This document shows positions 14,869 to 26,053 of a DNA stretch of 64,000 nucleotides, in pieces. Each line of letters begins with the position of its first letter. The first letter of the stretch is position 1. Location: positions 186,001 through 250,000 of the forward strand of contig NZ_JAEQNC010000004.1 of assembly GCF_016722925.1 (NCBI RefSeq). The letters are read 5' to 3'. Below the pieces are notes generated by a model that ran no database searches, was not told the DNA's origin, and saw nothing but the letters and a program-made list of their open reading frames with translations. Position numbers and translations under genes: made by a program. This DNA comes from Phytoamicus setariae. GTDB lineage: Bacteria; Pseudomonadota; Alphaproteobacteria; Rhizobiales; Rhizobiaceae.

Positions 14869-15453
14869 TCACATCGGCAATGCCGGCACGCCAATTAGCA
14901 ACGGATGCAGCTTGGCGGCGAACACACCGTAAAGGACCACGCCGATTGCGACCGCAGCGACATCCCAGGTCCAGGATTTATAGACGCGCGGCGCAACTTC
15001 GCCCCGCTGCACCCGCTTCTTGTAGGAGATCCTGAGAATGACCCCCCAAGCCAGGAAAGCGGCAAACAGGATCACCTGCACGACTTCACCATTGGCGAAA
15101 AGGTGCGCCAGTGCCCAGATCTTGATTGCCAGTACCGGAGGATTCTTCGTCCAGGTCGCAATATAGCCCGAGGGCAGAAAGCCGGAAACCAGCACGATCG
15201 ATGCCAGCAACATCAGCAGCAACGTCAGATGGGCCATGAATGGGGGCGGCGTGTACAGGATATCCGTCTCCATGCGCGCCTGTCCAAATCCGTAGATCAG
15301 CAGACAGAGTGTCGCGATGGCGGCCACGGAAAAGACTGCACGAAAGCCGATCTTGCCGAGCGAGCCGATCAACCCATCACGGATGCCGGGAAAGAGACGT
15401 ATCAAATGCAAGCCGAGAAAAAGGATCAACCCGATAAGGAAAAGTGCCATCAT
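14869..15453 (-). CDS. NnrU-family membrane protein
   Basis: A 194-residue integral membrane protein with about six helices starting MMALFLIGLILFLGLHLIRL, the typical NnrU N-terminus, with the interior motif WALAHLFANGEVVQVILFAAF. NnrU was named from nitrite/nitric-oxide reductase clusters and is related to isoprenoid-enzyme (phytoene/zeta-carotene isomerase-like) membrane proteins. No denitrification gene is nearby, so its role here is open. Two adjacent ATGs (15453, 15450) could start it. It is 85 bases from the TPR gene and probably a separate transcript. Confidence 0.85.
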   Translation of the reverse strand: MMALFLIGLILFLGLHLIRLFPGIRDGLIGSLGKIGFRAVFSVAAIATLCLLIYGFGQARMETDILYTPPPFMAHLTLLLMLLASIVLVSGFLPSGYIATWTKNPPVLAIKIWALAHLFANGEVVQVILFAAFLAWGVILRISYKKRVQRGEVAPRVYKSWTWDVAAVAIGVVLYGVFAAKLHPLLIGVPALPM

Positions 15454-15570: not shown

Positions 15571-18500
15571 CTACGGCGTCGCCTTACCGGTCTTCAATTG
15601 GATTCGCGGTCCCAGCCACTGGATCATTTTTTCCTCCAGGCGGTCAGGCGTCATCGGCTTGGCGAGGCAGTCGTCCATGCCCGCCTTCATGCAATGTTCC
15701 CGCTCGAATTCCTGCCGATTGGTGATCACGCCAATAATCGGCGTATGGCCGCCGGTGACCGCCTCGCTGGCGCGGATATGCATGGTTGCATCCAACCCGC
15801 CCAGCACAGGCATGGACGTATCCATGAAAATCAATGACGGCGCTGCTGCCTGCCAGGCCTCCAGTGCCTCTTTGCCATTGCCAACGATCCGGTGGTCGAT
15901 TGCCAGCCCGTCCAGTATTTGCCGGAAGAATATCTGGTTGACCTCATTGTCTTCGGCCACGAGGATGTAGGGCCGTGGGACGGTTGCCTCCGGCTGCATC
16001 ACGGAAGGCCCATCCACAGGCTCACCCTGCGACACAACCTCTCCACCAGGCGCAGGCAAGCGCTGGATGGACTGAGGCCTTATCGACACGATCGACGAGT
16101 TGTTCGCTTTGTTGGTTCGTTGCCGGGCGGCACGGATAACATCGATCAGCGTCTGGCGCAGCAGAGGGGTCCGTACCGGCTTCATCAGATGGGCCTGCGC
16201 ATGGATATCCGCCTTCAGCTCTTCGTCTTCGCCGATATCGCGCGCCGTCAGAAATACAATCGCGAGATTTTCGCACCCCGGCTTTGCGCGGATCGCCTGG
16301 GCAAACTCGGTTCCACTCATGTCAGCCATATGGCAGTCGATGACGACAGCATCGACGCTAAGCCCGTTGTCAACAGCAACTTCAAGAATCGACATCGCAG
16401 TTGCCGCATCGGCAGCGCCCACGCAATCGAAACCCCATTCCTCGACATTTTCGAGAAGATGATCGCGGACGACCTCGTGATCGTCGACAATTAGCACGCG
16501 GGCACCCGACACGTTCTTGGGCAACGAACGCGAACGGCTGGCTTCCGCCGCCACCTGAACCGGCAGGCTGAAGGTAAAAGTCGAGCCTCTGCCTTCTGTG
16601 CTGTGCACCGATATCGCCCCGCCCAGAATCGTGGCAAGCCGCTGCGCAATGGCCAGCCCCAGGCCCGTTCCATCAGGACGGTTCGAGGAAATCTCCACTT
16701 GGGAGAAGCGTTCGAAAATCGAACCGAGCTTGTCGGCGGGAATGCCGATGCCCGTGTCTTCGATGGTAATACTCAGAAGATGCTGGCCGGGACCGCCGTC
16801 GACTGCCTCAATCGATGCGGAGACATGACCGCGTTCGGTGAATTTCACGGCATTGCTGACGAGATTATGGACGATCTGCCTGAAACGACCGGCGTCGCCC
16901 ATTATGGCCGCCGGAATGCAATCCGAACGCTTGACGATCAGTTCGACATCCTTCTCCGCAGCCTTGAAGGCAAACAACGATGCCACATCTTCCATTGCCT
17001 CGGCGGGATCGAAGGATGTGTATTTCAGCTGCATGTGCCCGGATTCGAGCTTGGAGAAATCGAGAATGTCGTTGATGACCGTCATCAACGTATGGCCCGA
17101 CTTGACGATGATATCGATGAAAGCCTTCTGACGCGTATCAAGCGGCGATTTCGACAGCAGTTCGGCCATTCCGAGAATGCCGTTCATAGGGGTACGGATC
17201 TCGAGGCTCATATTTGCCAGGAATTCCGACTTGGCCCGGTCAGCAGCCTCCGCCTTGGCGACAAGGCGCTTCAGCTCTGCCTCGCGGCGGATGACCGAAG
17301 TCTCATCGCTGCACATGACGACGCTCTGGCCGTTGTCGCCCGCACGCATTTCGAGATGGATCCAGCGCTCCTCGTTGAGCGGAAACACATAGGAAACGTG
17401 CTTGCCCGCAGCGAGCGCACCGGCAAACCGCTCCAGGCCTTCCCTGACGACAGCCTCATCCGACTGCGGATTCTGGATCGCCGTTGCACGAAACACATCT
17501 TCCCAGCGCCCGCCGCTAGACAAAAGTTCCTCGGGAACGTTCAGGAGCTTTGCCAGGCTATTGTTGACGAAAGCGATCCTGCCGCCCTCGATCACCATCA
17601 GTCCTTCCGGCATCGTTTCGGTGGCATTGCGCGCCAGGCTGTAGGCTCGGGCAGCGGCCTCATGCGCCTGAGTGACCTCATAGTCGCGTTGCCGGAGCTC
17701 AGTCAGATCGACGTTGCAGAGCAGGAAGTTGCCTCCGGAGAGCGGAATGCCGGAATAGAAGACAACCTTGCCGCTCTTGAGCACTGTTTCACGCGGCCGA
17801 ATGCGCCCCGAGCGGATTTCATTGATCCGCATGGCGCAATACTCTTCGACCGAAGCCGTTGCCTCCGGCCGGTGGTCATTCCGGAAATGCGAGCACAGCA
17901 GATCCTCGAACGGCCGGCCGACCATGTCGCCGGCCTGATCGGCATTTTCCTTGCCCCAGATTTTTTTCTTGTAGGCTTCGTTCATCAACTGGATGTTCAG
18001 ATCGCGGTCGAGAACCAGCAACCCCACATCGACGCTGGATATGATGTTCTCGAAGTCCTGCCGGACCGCCTCAGCACGCTCGTTGGCTTCCTGCAGCAGA
18101 AGTTCGCGCTGCCGGATCGTCGAAATGTCGACGATTGTACCCACCAGGAATGGCGTACCCTTGCCGGTAACCATCCGCCCGGTCTTGACGATGGTGCTGA
18201 CCGTGCGGCCGTGCGCGACCTGCAGTTCTTCCTCGCGCTCGTATTCGCTGCCGTTGACTAGCGTATCCTGGTTGATTTCGCGTATGCTGGCAGCTTCGCT
18301 GCCCAGCAGCTCGAATTCGTCAGTACCGATCAGATTGTCACAACTGCGGCCAAAGAGGTCCGAATATGCCTGATTGACGAAAGCCAGCCGTTGGTCGGGA
18401 CCGCGCACGAAGGCGGCGACCGGCAGTCGATTCAGCAATTCCCGATACAGACTGACTTCCTCGACGTGACGCTCGAGAAGCGTTTCACGATTCTTCATCT

Positions 18501-19335
18501 CGGTTACATCGAGACGAAGACCGATAATGCTGCCATCGGCTTGCTTGCGGTTGATGGTGTGCAGCCAGGAGCCATTGGCAAGCTGGGTGTAGTCCGAGCT
18601 GCGCTCCCGTTCATAGCCGGCGAGCTTTGCGTCGATGCGCCGCTCGCGAATATCGGGGGCCATGGAATATTCGTCGGGAAAGCGCCGCGCCAGGCTGTCA
18701 TAGGCCGCGGCCAGCCCGTCGCGGAGGTGCATGCCGATATACAGATCATCAATCAGGCCCTTGTAGTAGGTCCTCAGGCGCTCATTGAAATAGACGAGCT
18801 TCCGCTCCTTGTTCCAGACGCAGAGGCCGACATCGAGCTCATCGAGCAGTTCATCTATCTGCTGCCTGTCGAGCGCCACCGCAGGGACGGCAGCGATCTC
18901 ATGTGCCTTTGTGTCGTCGTGCTGGGTGGCTGTGGAAACCGCTTTTGCGGGGTTCTCCACTGGCCGCGATGCATCTTGAGGGTGAAAGACGCTGTAGAGA
19001 AAGGTCTGCCCATCGCCCAGAACGAACTTTTCCATTTCGATGCGGAAGCGACCTTTGCCGAACGGATCAGCGAATTGCGAAGCCTGTTCGTCACCGAAAA
19101 CCAGGCACGCGCGCTCCTTGTCCTCGATATCCAGCAGCGCTTCGATGTCCTCACGCTCGCTGCGGCCCGTGCCGATGAGATCGGACGGCGAAACATTGAA
19201 CAGCTTGGAAAAAGCGTCATTGACGGCGACATAAACCAACTCGCTGTTCTTGATGAAAGCAGGTTCGGCGAGCTCGAGTATCCGGTCGCAAATCTTGTCG
19301 AGCAATGGGTCGCGGTAATAGATCAAAACTCTCAT
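15571..19335 (-). CDS. Large PAS hybrid sensor kinase with a Leu in place of the H-box His
   Basis: A 1254-residue soluble protein with no membrane helices. About five PAS domains fill residues 10-690 (examples VYVAVNDAFSKLFNV, LVYFNERLRTYY, LAFVNQAYSDLFG, IQLMNEAYKKK, IAFVNNSLAKLL). A HisKA-like dimerisation region follows at about 695-765. Then comes an HATPase domain with N box HNLVSNAVKF, G1 EDTGIGIP and G2 GTGLGLA. Two receivers follow (Asp in VIDCHMAD near 998; Asp in FMDTSMP near 1170). The H-box reads MSLEIRTPMNG: residue 711, codon CTC at 17203-17205, is Leu where the phospho-accepting His belongs. The ATG at 19335 is chosen by homology; its ribosome site is weak. Confidence 0.88.
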   Translation of the reverse strand: MRVLIYYRDPLLDKICDRILELAEPAFIKNSELVYVAVNDAFSKLFNVSPSDLIGTGRSEREDIEALLDIEDKERACLVFGDEQASQFADPFGKGRFRIEMEKFVLGDGQTFLYSVFHPQDASRPVENPAKAVSTATQHDDTKAHEIAAVPAVALDRQQIDELLDELDVGLCVWNKERKLVYFNERLRTYYKGLIDDLYIGMHLRDGLAAAYDSLARRFPDEYSMAPDIRERRIDAKLAGYERERSSDYTQLANGSWLHTINRKQADGSIIGLRLDVTEMKNRETLLERHVEEVSLYRELLNRLPVAAFVRGPDQRLAFVNQAYSDLFGRSCDNLIGTDEFELLGSEAASIREINQDTLVNGSEYEREEELQVAHGRTVSTIVKTGRMVTGKGTPFLVGTIVDISTIRQRELLLQEANERAEAVRQDFENIISSVDVGLLVLDRDLNIQLMNEAYKKKIWGKENADQAGDMVGRPFEDLLCSHFRNDHRPEATASVEEYCAMRINEIRSGRIRPRETVLKSGKVVFYSGIPLSGGNFLLCNVDLTELRQRDYEVTQAHEAAARAYSLARNATETMPEGLMVIEGGRIAFVNNSLAKLLNVPEELLSSGGRWEDVFRATAIQNPQSDEAVVREGLERFAGALAAGKHVSYVFPLNEERWIHLEMRAGDNGQSVVMCSDETSVIRREAELKRLVAKAEAADRAKSEFLANMSLEIRTPMNGILGMAELLSKSPLDTRQKAFIDIIVKSGHTLMTVINDILDFSKLESGHMQLKYTSFDPAEAMEDVASLFAFKAAEKDVELIVKRSDCIPAAIMGDAGRFRQIVHNLVSNAVKFTERGHVSASIEAVDGGPGQHLLSITIEDTGIGIPADKLGSIFERFSQVEISSNRPDGTGLGLAIAQRLATILGGAISVHSTEGRGSTFTFSLPVQVAAEASRSRSLPKNVSGARVLIVDDHEVVRDHLLENVEEWGFDCVGAADAATAMSILEVAVDNGLSVDAVVIDCHMADMSGTEFAQAIRAKPGCENLAIVFLTARDIGEDEELKADIHAQAHLMKPVRTPLLRQTLIDVIRAARQRTNKANNSSIVSIRPQSIQRLPAPGGEVVSQGEPVDGPSVMQPEATVPRPYILVAEDNEVNQIFFRQILDGLAIDHRIVGNGKEALEAWQAAAPSLIFMDTSMPVLGGLDATMHIRASEAVTGGHTPIIGVITNRQEFEREHCMKAGMDDCLAKPMTPDRLEEKMIQWLGPRIQLKTGKATP

Positions 19336-19422: not shown

Positions 19423-19563
19423 GGAAGTGGTTGACGCAGCCGGAACATGCAATTGCCCGTCCGCGCCAATGATTCTTCGTTACATGTCGCTTTTACCGAG
19501 GCTGGACAGGGGGTTTGTTGGCATTATTATGTATATGCAAATAGAATCTTGAGCAGGCGGAAC

Positions 19564-21150
19564 ATGAGCGCAGAAGGCACCCTCGCAAGCACCATCCATG
19601 AAGAAGCTACGGGCGAAGCGGGGCGGCGCCGGCGCCCCGGCGGACGCGGTGGTGACCGCACTCGCAAGAGCCATGGCCCTTCCTACCTCAACCTCACCAA
19701 CACCCGCCCCAAGACCGAACTCCTGTCCGCCGACCAGATCGAAGCAATCCACAATGCATCGCTGACCGTGCTCGAGGAAATCGGCATGGATATCATGCTG
19801 CCGGAAGCCCGCGAGATCATGAAGGCACACGGTGCCCGGGTTACTCCCGGCAGCGAACGCGTGCGCTTCGATCGCGGGCTGATCATGGATATGATCGCCA
19901 CGGTCCCGAAAGAATTTACACTATATTCCCGCAATCCGCTGCGCAACGTGCAGATGGGCGGCAACAATCTGGTCTTTGCCCAGGTCGCATCTGCACCCTT
20001 CGTGTCTGATCTCGACGGCGGTCGCCGCACCGGCAACCAGAAGGACTACCGCAACTTGCTGAAGCTTGCGCAGTCCTACGACATCATTCACACGACCGGC
20101 GGTTATCCGGTCGAGCCGGTCGATATCCATGCCTCTGTCCGCCATCTCGACTGCATCTCCGACCTAATCAAGCTGACAGACAAACCGTTCCACGCCTACT
20201 CGCTCGGCAAGCAGCGAAATACCGACGCGATCGAAATGGCTCGTATCGGACGCGGCATCAGCATGGAGCAGATGGAGCGCGAACCCTCGCTCTTCACCAT
20301 CATCAACTCGTCCTCGCCCCTGCGCTTGGACGGACCGATGCTGCAGGGTATCATCGAGATGTCCGCAACCAATCAGCCCGTCATCATTACGCCCTTCACC
20401 CTCGCGGGCGCGATGGCCCCGGTGACGGTGGCCGGTGCGCTTGTCCAGCAAAACGCCGAGGCGCTGTGCGGCATCGCGTTCACCCAGATGGTGCGTCGTG
20501 GTGCCCCAGCCGGCTACGGCGGCTTCACCTCGAATGTCGACATGAAGACCGGCGCGCCGGCCTTCGGCACCCCGGAATACATGAAGGCGGTGATCGCCGG
20601 TGGCCAGCTCGCCCGTCGTTACGGCTTCCCGTATCGTACATCCAACACCAATGCCGCCAATACCGTCGATGCGCAGGCGGCCTACGAGTCCGTCTTCTCT
20701 CTCTGGAGCGTGATCGAAGGCGGTGGCAATTTCATCATGCATTCGGCCGGCTGGACCGAAGGTGGACTGACCGCATCCTACGAAAAGTTCATCCTCGACG
20801 TCGATCTCTTGCAGATGATCGCCGAATTCCTACGCCCGCTCGATGTCTCAGACGAGGCGCTGGCGCTCGATGCCATCCGCGACGTTGGTCCCGGAGGCCA
20901 TTTCTTCGGCACGGCGCATACGCTCGCGCGCTACGAAAACGCCTTCTACTCGCCGATCATCTCGGACTGGCGCAACAACGAAAGCTGGGTTGAGGCAGGC
21001 AGCCCGACTGCCTTCGACAAGGCAAGCAAAGTCGCAAAGTCCGTGCTTGCCTCCTACGAGCGCCCACCGATCGATCCGGCTGTCGAGGAAGAACTCGACG
21101 CCTTCGTCGCCAAGCGCAAGGAAGAAGGCGGGGTAGCGACGGATTTCTGA
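19564..21150 (+). CDS. MttB-superfamily corrinoid methyltransferase (non-pyrrolysine)
   Basis: A 528-residue member of the trimethylamine methyltransferase superfamily, a TIM-barrel enzyme that moves methyl groups from quaternary or tertiary amines to a corrinoid protein. Family features include AIHNASLTVLEEIGMDI, RVRFDRGLIMDMIATVP, and the central INSSSPLRLDGPM and NQPVIITPFTLAGAMAPVT. The gene has no in-frame amber codon, so it is a non-pyrrolysine type like the glycine-betaine enzyme MtgB. The start at 19564 follows AGGCGGAA. Residues 15-40 are a basic Arg/Gly-rich extension before the barrel. No corrinoid protein or reactivase gene is in the window. The substrate is unknown. Confidence 0.85.
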   Translation: MSAEGTLASTIHEEATGEAGRRRRPGGRGGDRTRKSHGPSYLNLTNTRPKTELLSADQIEAIHNASLTVLEEIGMDIMLPEAREIMKAHGARVTPGSERVRFDRGLIMDMIATVPKEFTLYSRNPLRNVQMGGNNLVFAQVASAPFVSDLDGGRRTGNQKDYRNLLKLAQSYDIIHTTGGYPVEPVDIHASVRHLDCISDLIKLTDKPFHAYSLGKQRNTDAIEMARIGRGISMEQMEREPSLFTIINSSSPLRLDGPMLQGIIEMSATNQPVIITPFTLAGAMAPVTVAGALVQQNAEALCGIAFTQMVRRGAPAGYGGFTSNVDMKTGAPAFGTPEYMKAVIAGGQLARRYGFPYRTSNTNAANTVDAQAAYESVFSLWSVIEGGGNFIMHSAGWTEGGLTASYEKFILDVDLLQMIAEFLRPLDVSDEALALDAIRDVGPGGHFFGTAHTLARYENAFYSPIISDWRNNESWVEAGSPTAFDKASKVAKSVLASYERPPIDPAVEEELDAFVAKRKEEGGVATDF

Positions 21151-24701: not shown

Positions 24702-26053
24702 TTTCAATCCGAACGCGCTTCATCATCGTTTCGCTGATCAGCGTCACCGTCGCGCTTTCGCTCGCCTCATGGTTTCTGGTGGCGCTTTTCGCTGACAATG
24801 TCGAAAAGCGCATCGACACGGAATTGACGGGCCACATAAACCGTTTAGCAGGTTCGCTGGAATTCAAGTCCGACGGCACCTTGCAAAGACCCGAAAGCCC
24901 CGCGGACAATCGCTTTTATCAGGCCTATAGCGGTCTTTACTGGCAGATTGACGATCCCGCGCGCGGCACGGACCTGCGCTCTCCGTCGCTCTTCGATTAT
25001 GCGCTTCCCCTTCCGGCCGACGAACATTCTCCTGGCACTGTTCATCGCTACCACCTCAAGGGGCCGGAAGGCAGCGATGTTATCGTCCAGGAACGCGCCC
25101 TGATCGTAGCCGCCCCCGGTGGGGGCCGCACGATCAGGATTGCCGTGGCCGTCGATGCATCGGTGCTGAACGACGCAAAGGACAGCTTTGCCAGGGCAAT
25201 CATCCCCTATGTGGCGGCGCTTGCCGTTTTCCTGGTGGCCATGTCGGTCGTGCAACTGATGATCGGCCTGCGGCCGCTTTCGGCTATAGCCGGTGATCTC
25301 AATGACGTGCGCGAGCGGCGCAGCCAGACACTGAAGGCCCCCTACCCCGCCGAGCTTTCGGGTCTGGTCAGCCAGTTGAACCATCTGCTGGTGGCGCAGG
25401 CAAATGCGATCGAGAAGGCCAGAGCGCGCGCCAGCGATCTTGCTCATGGCCTCAAGACACCGCTGACCGTGCTCTCCAACAATGCGCTGACATTGCACGA
25501 CAAGGGCGAAACGGAAATGGCAGCTGAACTCGACCAGCTGGCCGAATCCATGCTCGCCCATGTAAATCACGAGCTGGCGCGGGCGCGGATTGCCCACAGC
25601 CCTGAACAGCGCAGGTCTGACGCGCCCGTGGGGAAGATCATCGATGATCTCGTTCGCACGCTCAAGCGCACGGAAGACGGCGAAAAGCTCGACTGGAAGA
25701 CCGTTGTTCCGCGGGATCTGACGCTGCCGATCGACCCGCAGGATTTCCGCGACCTGATCGGCAACCTTCTGGAAAATGCCGCCAAGTGGGCCCGCACATG
25801 TGTCAGTGTGACGGCAACCTCCCGGCCGCAGGGATGGACGATCACCATTGTCGACGACGGGCCGGGGGTGGCGGAAGACAAGCTGAGCCAGTTGACAACA
25901 CGAGGCCTGCGGCTGGATCATCAAAAGCCGGGCAGCGGCCTCGGTCTGGCGATCACCCAGGAAATCGCCTCGGTGTATGGGTTGGAGCTTCAGCTGGAAA
26001 ACAGCGGCGACAGCGGCTTGTGCGTAACCATTGCCGGCCCGGGCATTGCCTAG
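24698..26053 (+). CDS. Sensor histidine kinase
   Basis: A 451-residue membrane kinase resembling PhoQ in layout. It has a helix at about residues 8-30 (FIIVSLISVTVALSLASWFL), a periplasmic sensor of about 135 residues, and a second helix at about 167-187 (IIPYVAALAVFLVAMSVVQL). HAMP-like and HisKA regions follow with H-box LAHGLKTPLTVLSN. The HATPase has the N box NLLENAAKWA, DDGPGVAEDK and GSGLGLAITQE. It is coupled by ATGA to its response regulator. The periplasmic PepSY protein encoded first in the operon is a likely accessory. The signal is unknown. Confidence 0.92.
   Translation: MISIRTRFIIVSLISVTVALSLASWFLVALFADNVEKRIDTELTGHINRLAGSLEFKSDGTLQRPESPADNRFYQAYSGLYWQIDDPARGTDLRSPSLFDYALPLPADEHSPGTVHRYHLKGPEGSDVIVQERALIVAAPGGGRTIRIAVAVDASVLNDAKDSFARAIIPYVAALAVFLVAMSVVQLMIGLRPLSAIAGDLNDVRERRSQTLKAPYPAELSGLVSQLNHLLVAQANAIEKARARASDLAHGLKTPLTVLSNNALTLHDKGETEMAAELDQLAESMLAHVNHELARARIAHSPEQRRSDAPVGKIIDDLVRTLKRTEDGEKLDWKTVVPRDLTLPIDPQDFRDLIGNLLENAAKWARTCVSVTATSRPQGWTITIVDDGPGVAEDKLSQLTTRGLRLDHQKPGSGLGLAITQEIASVYGLELQLENSGDSGLCVTIAGPGIA

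Follow-up and report, generated by a model that had tools for sequence, protein, structure and literature searches.

A PAS-rich hybrid histidine kinase homologue with leucine at the phosphoacceptor position, a candidate pseudo-histidine kinase, and its relatives within one genus of the Rhizobiaceae

Results and Discussion

Organization of the locus

The window analysed here is a stretch of 64,000 nucleotides from Phytoamicus setariae, whose genome comprises 5.6 Mb in 37 contigs. The gene of interest encodes a PAS-rich hybrid histidine kinase homologue. The features of the gene and of its divergent neighbour are as follows, in coordinates of the window.

15571..19335, minus strand: PAS-rich hybrid histidine kinase homologue (open frame, Pfam)
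17266..19335, minus strand: sensory half at the N-terminus with several PAS domains, residues 1-690 (Pfam)
17011..17265, minus strand: DHp (HisKA), residues 691-775, with E712 and T715 (ExxT) kept (Pfam, alignment)
17203..17205, minus strand: Leu711 codon CTC replacing the phosphoacceptor His of the H-box (sequence, orthologue alignment)
17122..17124, minus strand: Ala738 codon (alignment)
16546..17010, minus strand: HATPase_c (CA), residues 776-930, with N, G1, F and G2 boxes kept (Pfam, alignment)
16840..16866, minus strand: N box NLVSNAVKF, residues 824-832 (alignment)
16738..16761, minus strand: G1 box EDTGIGIP, residues 859-866 (alignment)
16648..16719, minus strand: F box, shortened ATP lid and G2 box (alignment)
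16111..16518, minus strand: REC1, with D951, D952, D1000, T1030 and K1052 present (alignment)
15616..15978, minus strand: REC2, with E1128, D1129, D1172 and K1226 present (Pfam, alignment)
15724..15726, minus strand: Ile1204 codon replacing the switch Thr of REC2 (alignment)
19564..21150, plus strand: MttB-like gene, trimethylamine methyltransferase family, frame open from 19447 (TIGR02369)

The reading frame of the kinase homologue is intact. It encodes 1,254 aa counted from the ATG at 19335, terminates with the stop at 15571 and remains open upstream to a TTG at 19452. Pfam profiles match several PAS domains, HisKA (E 4.4e-19, 68.7 bits), HATPase_c (98.3 bits) and two receiver stretches, which gives the domain order PAS-HisKA-HATPase-REC-REC. 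The minus-strand codon 17205-17203 is CTC and encodes Leu711 within FLANMSLEIRTPMNG; the surrounding H-box coding sequence reads ATG AGC CTC GAG ATC CGT ACC. The codon, its coordinates and the residue number given in the initial annotation are thus correct. So are its statements that the classical phosphoacceptor is missing, that the N, G1 and G2 boxes are present and that each receiver has its aspartate (D1000 and D1172). An active hybrid kinase of the HisKA type carries a phosphoacceptor histidine together with the N, G1, F and G2 boxes; all four boxes are found in the Leu711 protein, and the histidine is not. A kinase homologue lacking this histidine, or another function that the kinase requires, is by definition a pseudo-histidine kinase, and the HisKA match of the protein is otherwise significant.

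The product of the divergently transcribed MttB-like gene scores 315 bits against TIGR02369, below the cut-off of 525. This gene adjoins the kinase gene in all nine genus members, its copies being 82-88% identical to that of the window, and it also stands beside the kinase in 6 of 18 neighbourhoods examined outside the genus. It was not detected in the stretches around the six copies from a second genus, g15, which is discussed below. On the other side of the kinase, a minus-strand gene at 14869-15453, which we take to be NnrU-like, separates the kinase from the following gene, both in the window and in L134, L135, L136 and L137; it was not detected in L130-L133.

Distribution of the histidine loss

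Searching the genus gave a single strong orthologue (E up to 1e-200) per genome in all nine genomes, the window's included. One of these genomes (G006) is that of Rhizobium sp. TH2, 6,000 bases of it being 100% identical to plasmid NZ_CP062232.1. Residue 711 is not histidine in six of the nine members: it is Leu in the window's protein (CTC) and in L006 (CTG), Ile in L010 (ATC) and Val in L011, L012 and L013 (GTG in all three). The L006 protein shares 60% identity with that of the window. The histidine is kept in the other three members, L007, L008 and L009, all with the codon CAC. For comparison, 79 loci outside the genus were considered (L014-L041, L118-L129 minus the duplicate L128, and L316-L355), among which named and unnamed entries may overlap in species. 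This set leaves out 48 weaker matches, which mostly cover the C-terminal half only and often belong to proteins of about 800 residues. Among the matches listed by a scan of genome contigs, identity reached at most 41%, and apparently none belongs to the genus. Histidine occupies the site in 78 of the 79 loci and arginine in the remaining one (L345). The initial annotation had regarded orthologues with histidine at this position as evidence against its reading. Such orthologues do exist, both outside the genus and within it, but their distribution shows a lineage-specific loss and not an error.

Residues changed together with the histidine

Across all 88 loci (the nine genus members and the 79 outside loci), E712, T715, N824, N828, D860, G862, G864, F874, G889, G891 and G893 are invariant. 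Other positions follow the state of residue 711. All six His-less members have Ala at residue 738, where the three His-bearing ones have Thr; outside the genus 73 of 79 loci have Thr and two have Ala. Compared with the His-bearing genus members, the ATP lid is shortened in the six His-less members, by one residue and in L010 by two. The extra lid residue is present in 77 of the 79 outside loci. Neither the shortened lid nor the REC2 replacement described next had been noted in the initial annotation. The N-box Lys is replaced by Gln in the three Val-type proteins (L011, L012 and L013).

The switch Thr of REC2, residue 1204, is replaced in the six His-less members by I, I, S, V, A and A, and it is kept in the three His-bearing members and in all 78 readable outside loci. 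Since the loss of Thr1204 is confined to the His-less members, the phosphodonor and the receiver switch changed together. D1172 and K1226 of REC2 are retained in the window's protein. A pseudo-receiver has been defined as a receiver missing any of five conserved residues (PMC12632262), and by this definition the REC2 with Ile1204 is a pseudo-receiver. All five residues are present in REC1 of the window's protein. The REC1 acidic residues are changed in L006 and L010, and the REC1 Thr is replaced by Ala in the Val trio and by Ser in L010; REC1 residues vary in the outside loci too. These observations weaken the suggestion of the initial annotation that the protein serves as a phosphate sink through its two receivers: both aspartates remain, as it had stated, but the REC2 switch Thr has gone in all six His-less genus members.

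A frame change occurs in the same REC1-REC2 linker in the His-bearing L009 and in the His-less L013. With completeness ratings of 84% and 86% for the two genomes, both breaks may be assembly errors.

Number of losses and history of the kinase half

The species tree was built from rpoB, rpoC, gyrA, gyrB, der and valS of 19 genomes, that of L008 being only 22% filled. In it the His-bearing trio falls into one group with L006 and the species of the window (96/99), and a clade of the His-less members is rejected (p-AU 0.02); a three-gene tree under a mixture model rejects this clade likewise (p-AU 0.016). The tree of the N-terminal residues 1-700 matches the species tree (99/97, 96/96) and also rejects a His-less clade (p-AU 0.03). 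A single His-less ancestor is contradicted by these three results. The placement of the His-bearing species inside the genus by the species tree and by the sensory half favours two or three separate, parallel losses of the histidine, accompanied by convergent change, over a single loss.

The kinase half of the protein disagrees. Trees of residues 700-930 and 700-1254 join the Leu and Val types (97/94 and 100/100, respectively) and reject the species groupings (p-AU 0.005-0.009), that of the window's protein and L006 with the His-bearing trio at 0.006-0.009. Support for all six His-less proteins together is only 64/37 and 79/73 in these trees. In the full-length protein tree the six are united (98/96), and the species grouping is rejected (p-AU 0.006). 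Single residues divide in the same manner. Five derived residues are common to the Leu and Val types, with the His-bearing trio at the outgroup state, and every one of them falls in the kinase and receiver half; the five that favour the species grouping are all found in the N-terminal half. The kinase-half trees, the full-length tree and the shared derived residues would all be explained by one ancestral loss followed by a return of the histidine, through reversion or recombination, or by an exchange of kinase halves within the genus. The core of the His-bearing TH2 protein is, moreover, about as close to outside genera (up to 63% identity) as to one His-less sister (59%). A return of the histidine would, however, have had to bring back Thr738, Thr1204 and the lid residue along with His711. 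Four residues of the DHp-CA region are common to the whole genus, with its His-bearing members, and occur in none of the eight species taken as outgroups; no genus-only residues of this kind were found in REC1 or REC2 against the same outgroups. A search of 394 genomes of the family (E up to 1e-190) found no close donor of the TH2 core. The absence of a donor and the genus-specific DHp-CA residues argue against recombination of a His-bearing core from another genus in particular. We regard a single loss with later return or exchange as the less probable history, though a serious alternative to repeated loss; the choice concerns the history of the gene only.

Kinase chemistry may have been lost by other routes in g15. 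Five of its loci (L337, L340, L342, L344 and L345) have lost the F box and the normal G2 box and carry Ser for the REC1 Asp and Arg for the REC1 Lys, their REC2 residues being intact. Their H-box has His in four cases and Arg in L345. The sixth g15 locus, L322, looks normal. The five loci align over their full length at 33-34% identity. Should they be orthologues, kinase chemistry would have disappeared from the family along more than one path, theirs being RetS-like. It is conceivable, at somewhat less than even odds, that the same kinase was made a His-less pseudokinase two or three times, that each of these conversions brought an aliphatic residue to the site together with T738A and the loss of the REC2 Thr, that g15 lost its chemistry through other boxes and REC1 residues, and that the real job of the family is non-catalytic. 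If this repeated conversion is true, the kinase chemistry of the family would have been repeatedly expendable.

Proposed mode of action

We propose that the protein is a pseudo-histidine kinase, a His-less descendant of a hybrid kinase that would bind ATP and control partner proteins much as DivL or RetS does, and we assign this reading a probability of roughly 0.6. A normal hybrid sensor kinase ancestor would have lost its phosphoacceptor histidine and with it the ability to start a His-Asp relay by itself. The dimerising helix pair of the DHp, the ATP-binding CA domain, the PAS sensors and the receivers would have been retained. Most likely, signals received by the PAS domains, together with ATP, would determine the conformation of the DHp-CA core, and the core could then act on other two-component proteins either through direct binding or as an ExxT-type phosphatase of a partner receiver. 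With the ExxT motif and the ATP boxes conserved alongside the dimer core, such partner control is the best-supported reading. The initial annotation had listed an ATP-binding PAS sensor, a phosphatase and a pseudokinase partner among its options, and an ATP-binding pseudokinase or phosphatase partner is what we prefer; the absence of kinase activity, the ATP binding, the partner binding and the phosphatase activity are what we infer from the sequence. Phosphatase activity as a general role of pseudo-histidine kinases is argued against in PMC12632262. Judging from the residues concerned, ATP binding may be weakened by the short lid of the six His-less members and by the exchange of the N-box Lys for Gln in the Val trio.

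An AlphaFold model of the core, made with the sequence of the window's protein and 27 aligned relatives, has a mean pLDDT of 84.6, with a poorly predicted lid. The top Foldseek matches to this model are GacS (7z8n) and RetS (6dk7, 6dk8), and the best 18 matches also contain ShkA and DivL (4q20) among other histidine kinases.

The strongest rival in function is a reaction in trans: paired with another kinase in a heterodimer, the protein would use its intact CA domain to phosphorylate that kinase's histidine. Such a reaction is known from CheA4, which phosphorylates CheA3, and the kept and constrained DHp and N, G1, F and G2 boxes would suit it. A suitable partner would be a His-bearing HisKA protein with a dead CA domain. 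At a threshold of E up to 0.01 the genome gave 29 matches to HisKA, of which 28 exceed the Pfam cut-off; this survey covers the HisKA profile, as distinct from HisKA_3 and other DHp families. The H-box site is His in 27 of the 29, Tyr in a DivL-like protein and Leu in the protein studied here. A simple regular-expression search of the 27 His-bearing proteins found the N, G1 and G2 boxes in 25 (the N match of L312 being doubtful), and L295 and L307 each miss one box, which may be an artefact of the expression. No obvious partner with a dead CA domain was thus found by this search. The short lid also argues against efficient phosphoryl transfer, and we consider phosphorylation in trans unlikely.

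Two members of this survey deserve mention in their own right. The DivL-like protein L296 (G000:C3, about 140.5-141.3 kb), with Tyr at the H-box (SYELRSPL), is a useful internal control. A weaker HisKA match in the window at 25430-25579, plus strand, reads AHGLKTPL and has Gly where Glu or Asp usually follows the histidine.

Another possibility is that the gene is relaxed and decaying, its kinase function lost and its sequence drifting towards a pseudogene. The His-less lineages have long branches in the full-length tree, which indicates a phase of fast change, and the REC1 and REC2 replacements described above, as well as the frame change of L013, could be read as signs of decay. The dN/dS values indicate otherwise. 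Within the Val trio they are 0.00-0.03 for the DHp and 0.03-0.07 for the CA domain, against 0.12-0.25 for the PAS stretches, 0.11-0.22 for the first 120 residues and 0.13-0.16 for REC1. The corresponding values of the His-bearing trio are 0.03-0.05 (DHp) and 0.10-0.16 (CA). The His-less core of the Val trio is held at least as tightly as the core of the working kinase, and a DHp value of at most 0.03 shows that this core is under strong selection. These strongest figures belong to the Val trio and not to the window's own lineage; the comparison of the window's protein with L006 gives 0.08 (DHp) and 0.15 (CA) at dS above 1, which is within the range of the His-bearing pairs compared (DHp 0.03-0.09, CA 0.10-0.17). 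Full-length open frames are present in five of the six His-less genomes, and the catalytic-box residues are retained in all six. The sixth is the 86% complete genome of L013, and the His-bearing L009 has the same kind of break. The low values of the Val trio, the open frames and the invariant boxes point to maintenance by selection and make decay improbable.

That another histidine, His767 at the end of the DHp, has taken over as phosphoacceptor is more doubtful still. Within the genus the His-less members show the pattern HHQHHH at this residue and the His-bearing ones QQQ, and Gln is found in 68 of the 79 outside loci. His767 is, however, missing from the Ile lineage and present in three outside loci, and from general DHp geometry it presumably sits at the hinge between DHp and CA, well away from the usual acceptor. 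T738A and Q767H are possible compensating changes. The initial annotation had also allowed for a sequencing error or a recent mutation, on the ground that CTC is one base off CAC. An error of sequencing or assembly, or a point mutation of very recent date in the window's strain, is ruled out for practical purposes by the independent CTG of L006, by Ile or Val in four further members and by the linked changes at residues 738, 885 (lid) and 1204. 

Most of the sister species also lack the histidine, and the remainder of the core is highly conserved; the Leu711 protein has thus probably become a lasting non-kinase signalling protein.

Comparison with known systems

DivL, known from Caulobacter and further alphaproteobacteria (PMC4211667), and RetS (PMC5992135) are described in these sources as kinase-like cores that can work without autokinase activity. 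The Leu711 protein resembles DivL, as presented in PMC4211667, in its PAS-rich architecture with a HisKA DHp-CA core, in the replaced H-box residue and in the other boxes kept. DivL orthologues also differ at the H-box site, which is Tyr and in one case Ala in the orthologues shown there. Unlike the present protein with its two receivers, DivL as drawn in that source ends at the DHp-CA core and has no receivers. The replacement also differs, being Leu and not Tyr, and a separate protein of the Tyr type, L296, exists in the same genome. Compared with DivL, the replacement described here is aliphatic and confined, among the loci examined, to part of one genus.

With RetS of Pseudomonas aeruginosa the protein shares a hybrid organization with two receivers; RetS does not autophosphorylate and works on another kinase, according to the account in PMC5992135. 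RetS is also among the nearest structures, and the ExxT part of the phosphatase motif is kept here. The lesions are different: following the same account, the H-box of RetS is preserved and its HATPase domain is degenerate, whereas here the histidine is lost and the HATPase boxes are kept. REC2 of RetS is likewise given there as a phosphate acceptor, whereas the REC2 switch Thr is lost here. The ChrS pseudokinase variant of Corynebacterium glutamicum (PMC9491836) is similar in that a kinase-dead sensor shapes signalling via a partner kinase; as reported there, it arose by a laboratory-evolved frameshift that truncates the CA domain and not by natural loss of the histidine.

HisKA domains without the histidine number 722 of 76,471 (0.9%) in the count of PMC12632262. 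They share the defining loss with the present protein, and the available part of that source deals with their frequency rather than with lineage history or constraint. The pseudo-histidine kinases that we found in the literature are few and mostly single cases, and none of the titles returned by the literature searches, those on pseudokinases in general included, deals with this kinase family. Pseudo-histidine kinases are a known kind of protein, and what is new is the apparently repeated and constrained conversion of a kinase within one genus. Since His-bearing and His-less close relatives occur at the same locus, the gains and losses that follow when a sensor kinase gives up its catalysis can be compared directly, and so can the purpose for which the ATP-binding core persists, be it allostery, phosphatase action or partner binding. 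The changes linked to the histidine loss, in the lid, at residue 738 and at the REC2 Thr, provide defined residues for testing.
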